Source of the DNA: Candidatus Tenebribacter burtonii | GTDB lineage: Bacteria; Cloacimonadota; Cloacimonadia; Cloacimonadales; TCS61 | Assembly (NCBI GenBank): GCA_030765625.1 | Contig: JAVCCF010000103.1 | Coordinates: forward strand, 1-47,911 | Length of the DNA: 47,911 nt | Reading direction: 5' to 3' | In this document: one piece after another, positions 3,416-12,303 of the stretch | Position numbering within the stretch: the stretch's first letter is position 1 | Layout: every line of letters begins with the position of its first letter | Made by a program: the position numbers and the translations under genes | The notes under the pieces: model-generated | The model's database searches: none | What the model saw: the letters and a program-made list of their open reading frames with translations, nothing else | Told to the model about the DNA's origin: nothing

Positions 3416-3940
3416 CTAATCTTTATCAACAATAAATAACCCATCAGCAATGTCATTTCCTTTATCTTTCTTTGAAATTGGAATATGTATGTCCATTTGT
3501 GAATCTTTCTCCTCAAATTTGAACCTTAAATCATACCATTCGATCTCGTCTGCTGCAATTAATTTATATTCACTTTCCAGTAACCATTTATCATAAATAT
3601 AATTATAAGTTTCACTAAGAGTTTCCAATGATCCCATATGAGTAAACACAGCTACAAGCTGCTTAGGTATCTCATGATATTCCATTCCTTCAGGAATAAT
3701 ACTATCATCTTTAACAACTTTGCATACTAAATAATCAAACTTGGAATTTTCATCTAATTCTATTCCAGTATCATTTAAACAAATACCAAGAGAACAGTCT
3801 GGAACAGCGATTTTATCTAGTTCATTCATTCTATCAATAAAATCACTCCATAGTTGTGAAATGCGATTCTCCTCGATATTTGTGTGGATCTTCATCCCTA
3901 CCACTCTTAACATTTCTCTTTCTGTTATTATTACTTTCAT
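3416..3940 (-). CDS. GyrI-like / AraC effector-binding-domain protein
   Basis: The 174-residue protein matches the stand-alone GyrI-like (AraC_E_bind, SHS2-fold) family over its whole length. The diagnostic C-terminal half is clear: YHEIPKQLVAVFTHMGS, then LSETYNYIYDKWLLESEY, then WYDLRF and QMDIHIPIS. No DNA-binding domain is present. Members bind small amphipathic molecules in the groove between two repeats and act as drug sensors, sequestering proteins or, in some cases, hydrolases. It lies upstream of, and on the same strand as, a multidrug-type ABC exporter, which fits a role in drug sensing or binding. The start has an AAGG ribosome binding site 8-9 nt upstream. Confidence 0.8.
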   Translation of the reverse strand: MKVIITEREMLRVVGMKIHTNIEENRISQLWSDFIDRMNELDKIAVPDCSLGICLNDTGIELDENSKFDYLVCKVVKDDSIIPEGMEYHEIPKQLVAVFTHMGSLETLSETYNYIYDKWLLESEYKLIAADEIEWYDLRFKFEEKDSQMDIHIPISKKDKGNDIADGLFIVDKD

Positions 3941-7675: not shown

Positions 7676-7690
7676 TTTAAGGGAGGTTCT

Positions 7691-7822
7691 GTGAAAGTTT
7701 TGGCATTTGCAGCCAGCAGCAGTACAAGATCAATAAATAAAAAGTTAGTTACTTATGCATTATCATTCTCAAGATCAATGTTGAATATTTCACGGAAAAC
7801 TGGAATTGCTATGATAGTTTAG
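7691..7822 (+). pseudogene. 5' fragment of an NADPH-dependent FMN reductase gene
   Basis: GTG at 7691 follows GGGAGG. The first ~23 codons read VKVLAFAASSSTRSINKKLV, the nucleotide-binding start of the flavodoxin-fold FMN reductase family (the usual form is MK-L---GS-R--S-N-KL). After about 7760 the similarity ends and the frame closes at TAG 7820. The rest of the gene has been lost and replaced by the tail of a TPR protein in another frame. Confidence 0.6.
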
Positions 7823-7956
7823 GTGAAGCTTATGTGAATGCAGAAAAATTAGAACTGGCGATTACAAATTATGAAAAATCAATTGAATTAAATCCCAACA
7901 ACGAAGGTGGAAAAAAGGTTCTGAAAAGAATAAAAGGTGAATTAGAAAAAAAATAA
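7768..7956 (+). pseudogene. 3' fragment of a TPR-repeat protein gene
   Basis: In the frame ending TAA 7954-7956 the sequence reads ...NVEYFTENWNCYDSLGEAYV, then ITNYEKSIELNPNNEGGKKVL and a basic end. This is one full tetratricopeptide repeat, the normal C-terminal end of periplasmic hydrolases that carry a TPR tail. It has no start codon or ribosome binding site and overlaps the FMN reductase remnant in a different frame. The two remnants meet at about 7760-7770, which marks a deletion junction. Confidence 0.6.
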
Positions 7957-7959
7957 ATT

Positions 7960-8052
7960 GTGAATAATTTTAAAATTATGGTAAGCTCTGAATTCGGGGA
8001 GCTGATAGTAGAACTGGCAGAGAAATATAAGTATAAATTGAATTACGATTAA
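7960..8052 (+). pseudogene. Short ORF, probable gene remnant next to the cassette array
   Basis: GTG at 7960 opens 30 codons, VNNFKIMVSSEFGELIVELA and ten more residues, ending TAA at 8050-8052, three bases before the first attC-like repeat. Its start resembles the start of the DUF2268-like protein at 6228 (NKFKIFVSSEFG against NNFKIMVSSEFG) but the rest does not. I do not recognise the family. It is either a truncated gene or a very small one. Confidence 0.35.
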
Positions 8053-8054
8053 TT

Positions 8055-8180
8055 GTAGTGTTTTGCGTGTGCGGCGGGATCGGAACGATCACGCCCAAAA
8101 CAAACTGACCAGCCGGTTGAATCGGAAGATTCAAACCAAAAGCACTTCCAGACCAAACTGCCGACACGCTTATTAGTGGC
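8055..8180 (-). repeat. attC-like site 1 (left end of array)
   Basis: A 126-bp copy. Read on the minus strand it begins CCACTAATAAGCGTGTCGGC and ends GCCGCACACGCAAAACAC. GCGTGT-CGGC pairs with GCCG-C-ACACGC, leaving one unpaired C, as in the L boxes of attC sites. Internal hairpins GATCGGAACGATC and GAATCGGAAGATTC are present. Its distal end lacks the TTAG of the other copies (GTAGTG on the plus strand), so this edge is degenerate or terminal. Confidence 0.66.
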
Positions 8181-8216
8181 AATAAATCTACATTCATGAC
8201 ACATTCTATTAGAACA

Positions 8217-8540
8217 TTAAAAAACATATTTCAACGAAAAATCCAATCTATCTTTATATCCTAATTCATTGTTACCAAACAGAGTTAAATAATTAGTGCT
8301 AAATCCGAAACCACTATTTAGAATAACATTAAGACCCAGTGAATGTGATACGCCGTAAGTCTTGCTATCAGAATAGAATGTATAACCTAATCGGTAAGAT
8401 AATATATCTAAATAACCTACTTCAATTCCACTCCCAATTACTAACCTGTCGATGCTATATTTTCTAAAATCGATACTATTATAAATATGGAATTTCTCAC
8501 GTATCTCTTTGAAATACGGATGATTTCCAAATTGCCATAA
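8217..8540 (-). pseudogene. 3' fragment of an outer-membrane beta-barrel protein
   Basis: In the frame ending TAA at 8217-8219 the protein reads ...NHPYFKEIREKFHIYNSID, then alternating strands (RLVIGSGIEVGYLDILSYRL, YTFYSDSKTYGVSHS) and ends DFSLKYVF. A terminal Phe after amphipathic strands is the mark of a beta-barrel C terminus. There is a stop just upstream (8541-8543) and no start, so only about 107 residues remain. It overlaps the 3' end of the 333-codon cassette gene in another frame, pointing to a fusion or frameshift there. Confidence 0.5.
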
Positions 8541-9468
8541 TTATCTGTTGTGTAGTATTTGCATAAACAGTGTATCCATTGAAATTGATATCTACAGTTC
8601 TTAGTAAAGTCGGTGTCCCAGAATCATCACTTTTAATTATAACATTTTCTTCTTTTAAGAAAGTTCTTAAAGTATCTGGAATTGGAGATCCATCATAATG
8701 AGGATTGTAGTCTTTATTGAAAGTAATAGTTTGATATAAATAGTTATTAACTTCCATTGATCCTCTTTCTCTAGATTGACCAATTTCCAATATATTTGGA
8801 GAAAATATTTTTTTTTCAGGAGATGGTATTTTCTCATCTTTAATATAATCACCTTTATAAAAATCCAATATCTCAGTTTGTGTTATTCTGATATAACCGT
8901 TTTTAAATCCAATAAGATATTTTAATTTAAGACCATTTATTCTATGATAAGCATAAATTTCTACGTTTAAAAAATATTTCTCATTAATTCCTGCTCTTTC
9001 TGCAAATCCTGGGACAAATTTATATTCTGAATTTATCCAGTTCATTTTTTCAATCTGCAATTTTTTACCTTTAATTAAATGAAGGTAATTGCTAATTATT
9101 TCAAAAGCATTTGTACTATCAATTTTAATCCCTTCATTTTTTAGCATCTTGTTAAAGTCGGTATAGGAATTAAAAATATCATCACCCTTAATCAATACTC
9201 TTCTGTAATCCCATTCATCAACATCCCCTTTAAAGCGGATTAAATAAGCTTTATAACCTTCATAGGGTATTGTATATTCATTGTCAGGTTTTATTTCAAT
9301 TTGAAAATTTACTGAGTTTACTTCTTTTTTGAAGCCATTTTCTTCTAAAAACTCAACAGCCATTAGTCTCAATTTAGGATCTTCTCCCTGATAATTTACC
9401 CCATTTGCAAATAAACAACCTGTAAATACTGTTAAAAACAACCAGAACAACATCATTTTTTTAAACAT
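8497..9468 (-). CDS. Cassette gene: exported protein of unknown function
   Basis: The start at 9468 is chosen because AGGAGG lies 7 nt upstream; the longer frame to 9498 adds ten unsupported residues. The product (323 residues) begins MFKKMMLFWLFLTVFTGCLF, a signal peptide, possibly a lipoprotein signal (TGC). The rest is a mixed polar protein (for example KAYLIRFKGDVDEWDYRRV and NSEYKFVPGFAERAG) that I do not recognise. The last ~20 codons look wrong. The alternative frame over 8520-8570 reads YYTTDNYGNLEIIRIS, which is more protein-like, so a frameshift near 8565 is possible. The outer-membrane fragment overlaps here. It is the last of the three cassette genes. Confidence 0.62.
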   Translation of the reverse strand: MFKKMMLFWLFLTVFTGCLFANGVNYQGEDPKLRLMAVEFLEENGFKKEVNSVNFQIEIKPDNEYTIPYEGYKAYLIRFKGDVDEWDYRRVLIKGDDIFNSYTDFNKMLKNEGIKIDSTNAFEIISNYLHLIKGKKLQIEKMNWINSEYKFVPGFAERAGINEKYFLNVEIYAYHRINGLKLKYLIGFKNGYIRITQTEILDFYKGDYIKDEKIPSPEKKIFSPNILEIGQSRERGSMEVNNYLYQTITFNKDYNPHYDGSPIPDTLRTFLKEENVIIKSDDSGTPTLLRTVDINFNGYTVYANTTQQIIMAIWKSSVFQRDT

Positions 9469-9557
9469 TTTGAACCTCCTCTTTTTGATTATCTCCAATA
9501 TTTAACATTCTTGTCAAAACATATTTCAATTTAAATAAGTTTTGAATAAACGTATGT

Positions 9558-9686
9558 CCACTAATGTTTTGCGTGTGCGGCGGGATCGGAACGATCCCAA
9601 CTGAAAGCAGACCAATCAAAGTTTGAATCGTAAGATTCAGACGAAACGAACTGATAACACAACCCGCTGAAACGCTTGTTAGCAGC
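9558..9686 (-). repeat. attC-like site 2
   Basis: A 129-bp copy between two cassette genes. Minus-strand ends are TGCTGCTAACAAGCGTTTCAGC and GCCGCACACGCAAAACATTAGTGG, paired here without copying either in full. Its outer 7-8 bases on each side match the far ends of the two neighbouring units. Internal hairpins are GGGATC-GGAAC-GATCCC and GAATC-GTAA-GATTC. Confidence 0.72.
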
Positions 9687-9693
9687 ATCCTTT

Positions 9694-11190
9694 TCATTTC
9701 AAGAGTAAACATTTTTTAACTGATACCGTTTTGCCATTCACATTTAATTTATAGAAATAGATACCTGAACTGACAGGTTTATTTGAATCATCATCTCCAT
9801 TCCAAACAATTGAGTGATAACCTATATCAAATTCATTATGAGACAAAATTTTCACTTTCTGCCCTTTAGTATTATAGATAGATAATTCTACATTGCTTTC
9901 ATTTTGAATTGAAAAAGAAATTGTTGTTGTTGGATTGAATGGATTTGGGTAATTTTGTAAATCGTTGATTGCCATTGATATTTGGTTATTGTCTGCTGAA
10001 ACTTGAATTTCTTCACTTAATGAATATACATTAATTTGAGTTTCATTATCCGTAAAAAAAAGTAATTCGTTATCAGATCTCCTATTTATTGAAAAGGGTA
10101 AGATATCTGATTCTTGGGTCAAAGCAACATTACCAGTAACTCTATTTCTAACTTCACAATATGGTTGTTGAGACAAATCTTTATAAAAATATAAAATAAA
10201 ATAGTCTCCAAGGTTTGTATTTACGCAAGTTGATGTGCTAATATAAATTTGATTAATTCCAGGATTAGAATTTTCCCATAATATCTCCGAAAAATCTGGA
10301 GAAAAACAGACAAAATTATAGTTTGGAGTAATATAAATTAACAAGCCATAATCAGGATAGTTACTGTCGTTTCTTGTTAGATAAGTAAGGTATTGGTAAT
10401 CATTACTAGAAATAGAAAAGATTTCTTCGACTACTGCAGGAGAATTTTGGGTTACTGAGTTTATTGAATTGCTAACAGAATAAAAAGATGGATAATTCCA
10501 AGAACCACCCTCACCAAATGCTATTAGAAAATCATTTTCTTCATACTTTAGTAATTTAGAACCACCTTCTGGAATATTCTCAACAAGATTAAGGGAATTT
10601 TGATCAAATAAAAATTTATACATCTCTGAGCCCCAGTAACCATTTTCATCCCCTTCATCACCTTGCAATAATCCGAGATAAATATAACATGAATTTTCAT
10701 AAGTCTTTATTGTAACATATCGCGTATTAAAACAATATCCAAAAACACCATAAGTTTCACCAATCTCGATGACTTCTGAATCAAGTAAAACATTTGAATC
10801 AAAATTGTACATCTCAATTATGCAGGAGCAAAATTCATTAATATTTTCATTATAGACTTCAATTAAATATCTTGTATCATCCCATTCAAATAGATAGCAC
10901 TTTGTAAGTTGTCTTTCAGGAGTACAATATTCAGTATATATAGATAAAATTTCTCCTTCAAGATCGTATGATACTAAACGCCACAGCTCAATTGAATAAT
11001 TGTCGTCCAGGTTAACATAATTAACCCAGATCTCTTCTTGTCCATTGTCGTCAAAGTCTCTTATAGAGATATTAACAACTTCATCTTCAAGATCTACCCT
11101 ATTAAGTGTTATATCTAAATTAAATGATATTTGAGATTCTAAAATTTGAATGAATAGAATCAGTAAGATAGTCAGTAATATTCTGATCAT
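9694..11190 (-). CDS. Cassette gene: secreted protein with PNPFNP C-terminal sorting domain
   Basis: This 498-residue protein has a signal peptide (MIRILLTILLILFIQILESQ). A repeat-containing body follows (for example VNISIRDFDDNGQEEIWVNY, VCBS/FG-GAP-like, then strands suggesting a beta-propeller). It ends in an Ig-like sorting domain with LQNYPNPFNPTTTISFSI, SIVWNGDDDSNKPVSSGIYF and KKCLLLK. This C-terminal domain is nearly the same as those at 40661 and 42042 and directs secretion or surface attachment in Cloacimonadota and relatives (type IX secretion-like; the secretion machinery is not in this window). The TGA stop is 7 nt before attC-like site 2 and the ATG is 31 nt inside the unit boundary, as expected for a cassette gene. 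The body's binding target is unknown. Confidence 0.82.
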   Translation of the reverse strand: MIRILLTILLILFIQILESQISFNLDITLNRVDLEDEVVNISIRDFDDNGQEEIWVNYVNLDDNYSIELWRLVSYDLEGEILSIYTEYCTPERQLTKCYLFEWDDTRYLIEVYNENINEFCSCIIEMYNFDSNVLLDSEVIEIGETYGVFGYCFNTRYVTIKTYENSCYIYLGLLQGDEGDENGYWGSEMYKFLFDQNSLNLVENIPEGGSKLLKYEENDFLIAFGEGGSWNYPSFYSVSNSINSVTQNSPAVVEEIFSISSNDYQYLTYLTRNDSNYPDYGLLIYITPNYNFVCFSPDFSEILWENSNPGINQIYISTSTCVNTNLGDYFILYFYKDLSQQPYCEVRNRVTGNVALTQESDILPFSINRRSDNELLFFTDNETQINVYSLSEEIQVSADNNQISMAINDLQNYPNPFNPTTTISFSIQNESNVELSIYNTKGQKVKILSHNEFDIGYHSIVWNGDDDSNKPVSSGIYFYKLNVNGKTVSVKKCLLLK

Positions 11191-11213
11191 AATTTCCTCA
11201 AATTAAATTAGTT

Positions 11214-11343
11214 GCTGCTAATGTTCTGCGTGTGCAGCGGGATCGGAACGATCACGCCTGGAAACGAACCAACCAAAGTTTGGATCGGAACGATCCAGAC
11301 GAAACGGACTGATAACACGTACAGCTGACACGCTTGTTAGGTG
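11214..11343 (-). repeat. attC-like site 3
   Basis: A 130-bp copy. The minus strand begins CACCTAACAAGCGTGTCAGC, where ACCTAAC fits the integron R'' consensus RYYYAAC, and ends GCTGCACACGCAGAACATTAG. GCGTGT-CAGC pairs with GCTG-C-ACACGC with a single bulged base. On the plus strand the right end is GTTAGGT, matching GTTRRRY. Internal hairpins GATCGGAACGATC and GGATCGGAACGATCC are present. Confidence 0.74.
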
Positions 11344-11348
11344 AAAAA

Positions 11349-11846
11349 TCAATCAATATCATTTTTATATTCCGAATGTCTTGAATACAGGATTAACTGA
11401 TAAGTTAGAATAATTTCTTTCATAATTTCTTCATCAATTTTAAAATGCTTTGATAATTTTGAGTAATAACTACTTGAGCAGGTATAATTTCTTCTATACA
11501 ATGTAGAATCAATGTTGCTGACAAATTTTGATCCTTCCATTGAATACAGAACATTGAAATTAAGATGCATTTTTTTCTCTAAATCGTGATGGGTAATAAA
11601 TAGTATTTTTTTCAAGTCATTTTTGTTAAGTTTGTACTTGTTTGAAATAATCTCTGAATCCTTCTCTAAATCACTTCCATAAATCATATCAAAAATATTA
11701 ACCTTAATATTTGTGCTGTCTATATTTTGAGAATCATTTGGTTCAATACTACATTTATTAACAATTAAAATGTAAAAAAAGAAAATTAGTAAAACAAAAA
11801 TTATTTGTCCAAAAATTCGAATTGATTTCTTGAAATTATGCGACAT
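11349..11846 (-). CDS. Cassette gene: membrane-anchored protein of unknown function
   Basis: The 165-residue product has one membrane segment (about residues 11-31, IFGQIIFVLLIFFFYILIV), followed by a Cys and a polar, Lys/Ile-rich helical domain that would face the periplasm. No family is recognised. The last codon (D-I-D-TGA) lies 5 nt from attC-like site 3. The gene fills the first unit of the array, whose 5' boundary is TTAGGTG at 12044-12050. Base composition is even more A/T-rich than in the flanking genes. Confidence 0.6.
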   Translation of the reverse strand: MSHNFKKSIRIFGQIIFVLLIFFFYILIVNKCSIEPNDSQNIDSTNIKVNIFDMIYGSDLEKDSEIISNKYKLNKNDLKKILFITHHDLEKKMHLNFNVLYSMEGSKFVSNIDSTLYRRNYTCSSSYYSKLSKHFKIDEEIMKEIILTYQLILYSRHSEYKNDID

Positions 11847-12043
11847 ACTTTCTCACTTTAATGCCAATTTGAAAAAAAATCAAACTTAAATAATTATTAA
11901 ACGAAATACTCATTTTAGTTTTTAGTATTTATTTAAAATACAAAAAAAGATAAAACAACCTACTATCAATAAAATTTTTGAACATGCTCTTTATCCTTAA
12001 CTTAAATTTCTTCAAAAACTAATAATATAATTTTAACTTTTTT

Positions 12044-12066
12044 CACCTAACATGTGCACACCACGC
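12044..12066 (-). other. Half recombination site at the 5' boundary of the cassette array
   Basis: The minus strand reads GGCGTGGTGTGCACATG followed by TTAGGTG. GTTAGGTG fits GTTRRRY, and TTAGGTG is the exact complement of the bases at the far end of the same unit (11337-11343). GTGTGCA resembles the inner box of the other sites, but the remaining ~100 bp of a full site are absent. It may be a decayed attC or the attI side of a lost integron. Confidence 0.5.
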
Positions 12067-12303
12067 CTATATAAAATGTAGACATAACTAACCTATAGTT
12101 ATCTAAAAAATGAATACAATAACTTTTTGGAGAAAGTTATTGTATTCATTTCCCAACATCTTTTCTCATTAAAAGTATTCCACACATTCATTTCTAATTG
12201 ATTCTATTTTTTTTATAACAGAAATTTTGCAATGAATAAGTTTGCGTCAATATATTAATTAATATTAGATGAATTTGATAGTTCTCAAATATATAAGACT
12301 TGA
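12067..12303. other. A/T-rich intergenic region without a recognisable gene
   Basis: No ORF of note and no integrase remnant is visible. One inverted repeat is present: AATACAATAACTTT ... AAAGTTATTGTATT at about 12114-12149 (14-bp arms, 8-nt centre). It could be a terminator-like or protein-binding structure, but it lacks a T run on either side. Confidence 0.4.

Follow-up and report, generated by a model that had tools for sequence, protein, structure and literature searches.

We describe an integron-type array of gene cassettes in a 47,911-nucleotide stretch of DNA from Candidatus Tenebribacter burtonii, a member of the phylum Cloacimonadota (contig JAVCCF010000103.1; hereafter the window). 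Three minus-strand cassettes, at 12050-11222, 11221-9565 and 9564-8059, follow an attI-type site, and an attC-like hairpin of ~130 bp closes each of them, with all three hairpins lying within 3.3 kb. We consider it likely that this array was built by an integron-type platform that uses, in place of IntI, two tandem tyrosine recombinases, here called Rec1 and Rec2, whose genes have since been lost from the locus and from the assembly. The window is contig C52 of a genome of 2.81 Mb in 181 contigs that is 98% complete (G000; the own genome in what follows).

Cassettes with complementary ends

An earlier examination of the window from its letters alone (the sequence-only reading) had proposed an integrase-less integron-type array on the grounds of three ~130-bp repeats and of units whose two ends complement each other. 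The repeats are present at plus-strand positions 8054-8179, 9558-9686 and 11214-11343, and the unit ends that it gave, TTAGGTG/CACCTAA, TTAGCAGC/GCTGCTAA and TTAGTGG/CCACTAA, are correct. Read on the minus strand, the repeat at 11214-11343 (attC1) has R'' CACCTAAC, L'' GCGTGTCAGC, L' GCTG[C]ACACGC and R' CA^TTAGCAGC; it scores 131 bits with a covariance model (CM) of the sites, which we term type 1, and has covarying inner hairpins. The minus-strand sites at 9558-9686 (attC2) and 8054-8179 (attC3) score 127.5 and 132 bits, respectively. attC3, at the end of the array, is slightly decayed, with TAAT instead of TAAC in R'' and CACTA instead of CATTA in R'. Cassette 1 (829 bp) runs from TTAGGTG to CACCTAAC plus attC1, cassette 2 (1657 bp) from TTAGCAGC to GCTGCTAAC plus attC2, and cassette 3 (1506 bp) from TTAGTGG to CCACTAAT plus attC3. 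In cassette 1 the complementarity is exact over 12 nt, between TTAGGTGAAAAA and its complement at R'' of attC1.

We quantified this property in 15 cassettes bounded by sites on the same strand, comparing the bases after TTA with the bases before TAAC. The summed complementary run was 82, as against a mean of 13.5 when the ends were shuffled, and none of 20,000 shuffles reached 82; within a single site, the control run averaged 0.27. Complementarity between the two ends of one unit is the signature of circularised cassettes. The sites also covary: in the named structure of 27 pairs, 93.2% of cells are paired and 57 two-sided changes were counted, whereas shuffling gave a mean of 23.8 (0/500 as high) and slid controls gave 1-11. 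The two inner hairpins are the most variable part, and the L''/L' stem is mostly invariant, so that covariation neither supports nor refutes that stem. Since the folding of single sites as DNA gave mixed results (z of -1.1 to -3.1, both strands alike), our claim for a folded attC is based on covariation. The proposal of a cassette array with attC-like sites is strongly supported.

A search of the own genome with one repeat returned ~40 type-1 places at E<=0.01. Their spread over many contigs is what a dispersed family of hairpins that chances to flank genes would also show, such as repetitive extragenic palindromic (REP) elements or miniature inverted-repeat transposable elements (MITEs). Such a family would not account for the complementary ends of each unit, the fixed polarity, the starts at attI or the different cassettes found at the same locus, and we consider it highly improbable. 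Neither unit ends lacking complementarity nor repeats standing alone or inside genes, outcomes that the sequence-only reading had named as fatal to its proposal, were encountered.

Aligned type-1 copies share nnnTAACAAGCGTGTC...GCACACGCnnAACA^TTAnnn, with variable middles. The GTT boxes reported for the sites were only partly recovered: the triplet at R' is ATT, nearly all type-1 sites reading CA^TTA, and the canonical GTT was not found there, but it occurs at attI, on the complement of R'' and in type-2 sites. No Rfam family was matched by the window or by four additional stretches. Among GTDB genomes, a 22-base site pattern matched almost only Cloacimonadota metagenome-assembled genomes (MAGs), including those of Candidatus Tenebribacter and Celaenobacter, with a few matches in bins labelled Armatimonadota, Zixiibacteriota, Neomarinimicrobiota, Sabulitectum and Peptostreptococcaceae, and the covariance model detected type-1 attC in 42 of 118 relatives and 21 of 50 genera. 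The own genome also contains short attC sites of ~70 bp, which have the same R/L core and a different tip, and a second, highly conserved attC-like family of ~190 bp (TTTAACGGCGGCGTGCC...GGCACGCCGCCG^TTA; 25 matches, for example L048 2190-2421 and 4419-4648, and L050 2878-3080), which usually stands behind one of the 34-bp minicassettes without an open reading frame (ORF), TTAATCAACATTCCGCTTCGCTCCATGTTGATTAAC. Many of its contigs break off inside attC-type repeats, often inside the ~190-bp family.

The array begins at an attI-type site

The right-hand boundary of the array, TTAGGTG, had been read as a unit end. The bases are right, and the boundary is more than that: 12100-12051 on the minus strand is a conserved attI-type site (AACTATAGGTTAGTTATGTCTACATTTTATATAGGCGTGGTGTGCACATG), with the crossover after its final G (12051^12050). 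Directly upstream, at 12110-12149 (minus strand), lies an inverted-repeat hairpin, ATGAATACAATAACTTT / AAAGTTATTGTATTCAT. A hairpin of this kind precedes every attI block inspected, and that of the window is the equivalent of the hairpin found in relatives between the Rec2 stop codon and attI; it is possibly a terminator or a set of accessory binding sites.

In two sister genomes, G006 and G008, the ~50-bp block of window positions 12100-12051 is present beside the orthologous TetR gene. The first cassettes at this TetR-side attI differ across the three genomes (^TTAGGTG, ^TTATACACC and ^TTAGCAGC), each starting exactly at ^TTA, so that the comparison of related genomes suggested by the sequence-only reading revealed different cassettes at one and the same attI. 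As to an empty site, G001 has no attI at the locus of the window, and in G001, G006 and G008 the corresponding contigs stop nearby.

The attI pattern AACTATAGGTTAGTTATG occurs, with up to 2 mismatches, in 11 copies in the own genome and in 2-14 copies in 8 of 9 other genomes of the genus, as compared with 0-1 copies for the reversed control. The crossover could be read in 29 attI blocks. Downstream of 17 of these there is an exact complement, at least 9 nt long, of the start of the first cassette, and this complement nearly always falls precisely on the nnnTAAC of an attC hairpin; several of the remaining blocks run off their contigs.

The bulged base and an AAC motif of the sites fit the opposite orientation, for which reason we considered reversed polarity, with attC ahead of the ORF and the crossover at R''. 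This was rejected, as at attI the ORF comes directly after ^TTA with no attC ahead of it, and the array ends in attC.

Tandem recombinases adjoin attI in relatives

The window ORFs examined close to the array include no recombinase, and none of the recombinase matches of the genome falls in contig C52. In this respect the array was correctly called integrase-less, a label that misses its attI start. At no fewer than eight loci in relatives (G001:C93, G002:C3, G005:C5, G015:C75, G015:C89, G021:C172, G030:C341 and G038:C337), attI lies ~55 bp behind Rec2, the second of two tandem tyrosine recombinase genes, Rec1 and Rec2, that read towards the cassettes; behind those of G001:C93 and G002:C3 there are attC cassette arrays. 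A Rec1-Rec2 pair with a divergent downstream site is found at G020:C140, and in G017 a contig ends within the pair, leaving Rec1 and the start of Rec2. Furthermore, 3' remnants of Rec2 abut attI at the window's own locus in G006 and at three loci in G007.

The two proteins differ in their active sites. Rec2 retains its catalytic residues at 9 of 9 loci. Rec1 lacks the full set (Arg-I, Lys, His, Arg-II, His/Trp, Tyr): it has Ser/Thr at the His position and Lys at the Arg-II position at 10 of 10 loci, and Ser/Thr at Arg-I at 9 of 10, while keeping the catalytic Tyr. These changes sit within an invariant LKNSFAVHL box. From its sequence, Rec1 is therefore predicted to be catalytically inactive. 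Its dN/dS (the ratio of nonsynonymous to synonymous substitution rates) of 0.06-0.13 is as low as that of Rec2 (0.04-0.14), with some dS values near saturation; this purifying selection indicates a maintained protein rather than a decaying gene. No relatives of Rec1 were found in the viral contigs searched.

The recombinases lack the insertion that defines IntI

We compared the array recombinases with IntI1, IntI4 and further IntI proteins, among them the intact one of G015. In all array recombinases the stretch corresponding to the IntI-specific domain is 31-32 residues long, as against 73-74 in IntI. The insertion has been described as defining for IntI (PMC9668308) and, elsewhere, as not fully conserved but essential (PMC8138268). 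In a tree, Rec1 together with C65, a single recombinase of the own genome, and Rec2 together with short types form one clade (97/96) apart from IntI (100/99), although sampling outside the phylum was thin. C65, which is catalytically intact by its residues, aligned with IntI4 (2a3v) in two blocks on either side of the insert and with XerA continuously, whereas the G015 IntI aligned with IntI4 over its full length. The solved structures closest to C65 are 4a8e and 5hxy, both of XerA type. C65 was also tried as an IntI and rejected, at 224 bits against a cut-off of 265 and with the insert missing; it exceeds the cut-off of NF040815 (NCBIfam 'site-specific tyrosine recombinase/integron integrase').

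These comparisons bear on whether the array is an ordinary CALIN, the IntegronFinder term for a cluster of attC sites lacking integrase, in which case a canonical IntI would be encoded elsewhere, having been missed in the MAG or lost, and the Rec1-Rec2 genes beside attI would be incidental. CALINs are common (PMC9668308), and we found canonical IntI in 7 of 125 Cloacimonadota genomes. G002, of the same genus, has on contig C175 (L071 52-5696) a canonical IntI with a frameshift; it is divergent from a cassette region in which ordinary-looking attC occur together with type-1 attC (3516, 4587 and 5566 of L071), so that IntI may also use type-1 sites. However, the attI block of the window recurs behind Rec2, the stretches inspected near four intact IntI genes (G108, G109, G112 and G114) yielded no type-1 attC, and no recombinase of the own genome scores above the IntI cut-off. 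We thus regard an ordinary CALIN as unlikely.

Like the IntI genes of the phylum and the G002 locus, four further points count against an origin from Rec1-Rec2. Neither Rec1 nor Rec2 is present in the own assembly, the only recombinase of this kind being C65, which has a different attI. The Lys at the Arg-II position of Rec1 might leave it some activity. In the sites described here, the one base that bulges from the main stem is in L', whereas attC sites studied so far have it in L''. Finally, the genomes are all MAGs, and the evidence throughout is sequence-based.

A single-recombinase platform and other relatives

C65 belongs to a second platform, with a single recombinase and another attI, attI-2 (GGGGACACACA^TTA). 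Relatives of C65 precede attC sites, five in G122:C141 (L324) and two in G118:C67 (L323). The C65 contig ends exactly at the crossover TTA of its attI-2 copy (L041 2995-3095). The other attI-2 copy of the own genome, on C168 (L343 4460-4550), has no recombinase, which indicates that attI blocks spread without their genes; its contig likewise ends at the crossover, as expected if the cassette that follows varies. These observations allow a reading, compatible with a Rec1-Rec2 origin, in which it is the intact C65 that now moves cassettes, by acting in trans upon type-1 attC and perhaps also upon the attI of the window (attI-1). The sequence of attI-2 differs from that of the window's attI, which makes the platform here one of the Rec1-Rec2 type; present-day service by C65 is a tentative proposal, although a less remote one than an ordinary CALIN.

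Related recombinases were also seen in other settings. A short single recombinase of the same clade in G008:C293 (L225 5897-6938) starts just after a type-1 attC, as if carried as cassette cargo itself. On an Acinetobacter baylyi plasmid (NZ_CP104735.1; L330 2967-5117), a recombinase fragment with 58.7% identity to Rec2 over 218 amino acids lies upstream of tet(X3). The ends on its two sides, GCCACTTG^TTATGTGCC before it and GGCTACTAACAAGCAG...GTACATTAGCTGCC after it, are only partly complementary, and the gene may lie in a cassette of a Rec2-like system. On a Chryseobacterium plasmid (NZ_CP041688.1; L331 4905-10945), a Rec2-like recombinase is followed by G^TTATACGAT, with a 9-nt complement 1.1 kb further on, and there are three near-identical 176-bp repeats ending GCCGAGCTGGCCG^TTAnnn. 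This Bacteroidota locus has the same recombinase-first layout as those of Cloacimonadota.

Cargo and flanks of the array

The cargo had been described as exported or membrane proteins. The three cassette ORFs are on the minus strand. Cassette 1 encodes 165 amino acids (11349-11846) with an N-terminal membrane anchor and no Pfam family. Cassette 2 encodes an exported protein of 498 amino acids (9694-11190) with a FlgD-Ig / type IX-type C-terminal sorting domain, above the cut-offs of Pfam PF13860, PF13585 and PF18962 and of TIGR04183. Cassette 3 encodes 333 amino acids (8497-9498) with a lipoprotein-like N-terminus. The 'decayed tail' noted behind this third gene (8181-8535) contains, out of frame, the terminal part of a second ORF, which is barrel-like and has a relative in G007. 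Cassettes on own contigs (L042-L064) are large for integrons, many being 0.8-1.8 kb; some ORFs reach 900-1070 amino acids, and some cassettes carry two.

The left flank of the array contains remnants of a TPR-like gene (7676-7960), and the part at 7772-7944 matches, with 87% identity, G002 sequence that lies close to the same neighbours. Outside the array, 3416-3940 on the minus strand encodes a GyrI-like protein that also matches Pfam Cass2, 'integron-associated effector binding protein'.

Discussion

We propose that circular cassettes, each made up of a single gene with its attC hairpin, integrated successively at attI (12051^12050), which would make the cassette at 12050 the newest and that ending at 8059 the oldest. 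Insertion at CACATG^TTA would be carried out by Rec2 as an active, XerA-like tyrosine recombinase, with Rec1, a paralogue that keeps the Tyr, as its partner. Their genes would once have stood immediately upstream of attI, oriented towards the cassettes, and would then have been lost, leaving an array that is presumably stationary unless a recombinase acts in trans. That the recombinases are gone beside most attI copies suggests such service in trans.

Recombination in integrons exchanges only one attC strand. A subunit that binds without cutting would impose this, and Rec1 might occupy the half-sites that are not to be cut, limiting the exchange to a single strand and leaving replication to resolve the junction; we infer this role for Rec1 from its residues. 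Integrons are regarded as relying on a single enzyme, IntI, which reads the folded attC through an extra domain. As the IntI-defining insertion is absent here, to file the array as an ordinary IntI integron or as a CALIN would be wrong or incomplete. Whether it represents a second kind of integron seems to us evenly balanced. In such a system, a heteromeric recombinase, made up of a catalytic XerA-like Rec2 and a degenerate Rec1, would serve many dispersed attI in trans, and Rec1 would replace the asymmetry that IntI gains from an extra domain reading the bulged bases, stopping the reaction after one strand exchange.

Search tools recognise integrons by the extra domain of IntI. If the same DNA logic is indeed served by recombinases without that domain, a whole class of gene-capture platforms has been missed by present searches, and a conserved inactive partner, if confirmed, would offer a direct handle on the long-standing question of how the reaction is restricted to one attC strand. 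Cloacimonadota are a dominant group of uncultured anaerobes, whose exported proteins are among the cargo, and the possible link to tet(X3) plasmids could give the system relevance for the origin of resistance genes. Cloacimonadota are not in a 2021 list of phyla with integrons (PMC8618304), integrons are not mentioned in the paper describing Tenebribacter (PMC8542988), and we found no report of Cloacimonadota integrons or of tandem non-IntI integron recombinases in the open-access literature.

Class 1 and chromosomal integrons resemble the system described here in the complementarity of a unit's own ends, in attC sites with R and L boxes and in one-directional arrays that start from an attI-type site. 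They differ in their integrase, since the recombinases here lack the IntI insertion and branch outside IntI; these are also two in tandem, one predicted to be inactive, and read towards the array. Moreover, attI is present in ~11 dispersed copies per genome rather than in one, and the R' triplet of attC is ATT. XerA resolves chromosome dimers. The simple tyrosine recombinases grouped as NF040815/XerA 'integron-like' are akin to those found here in the score of C65 and in the XerA type of its closest structures, but the members described here precede attI and cassettes. With integrons of the Treponema denticola type (PMC3607928), the system shares an integrase transcribed towards attI, the direction of the cassettes and mixed attC lengths (63-132 bp); a single intI has been described there, in contrast to the tandem non-IntI recombinases and many attI copies here. 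Finally, the window array is like a CALIN in having attC with no recombinase gene nearby, but unlike one it starts at the identifiable attI of a non-IntI platform.

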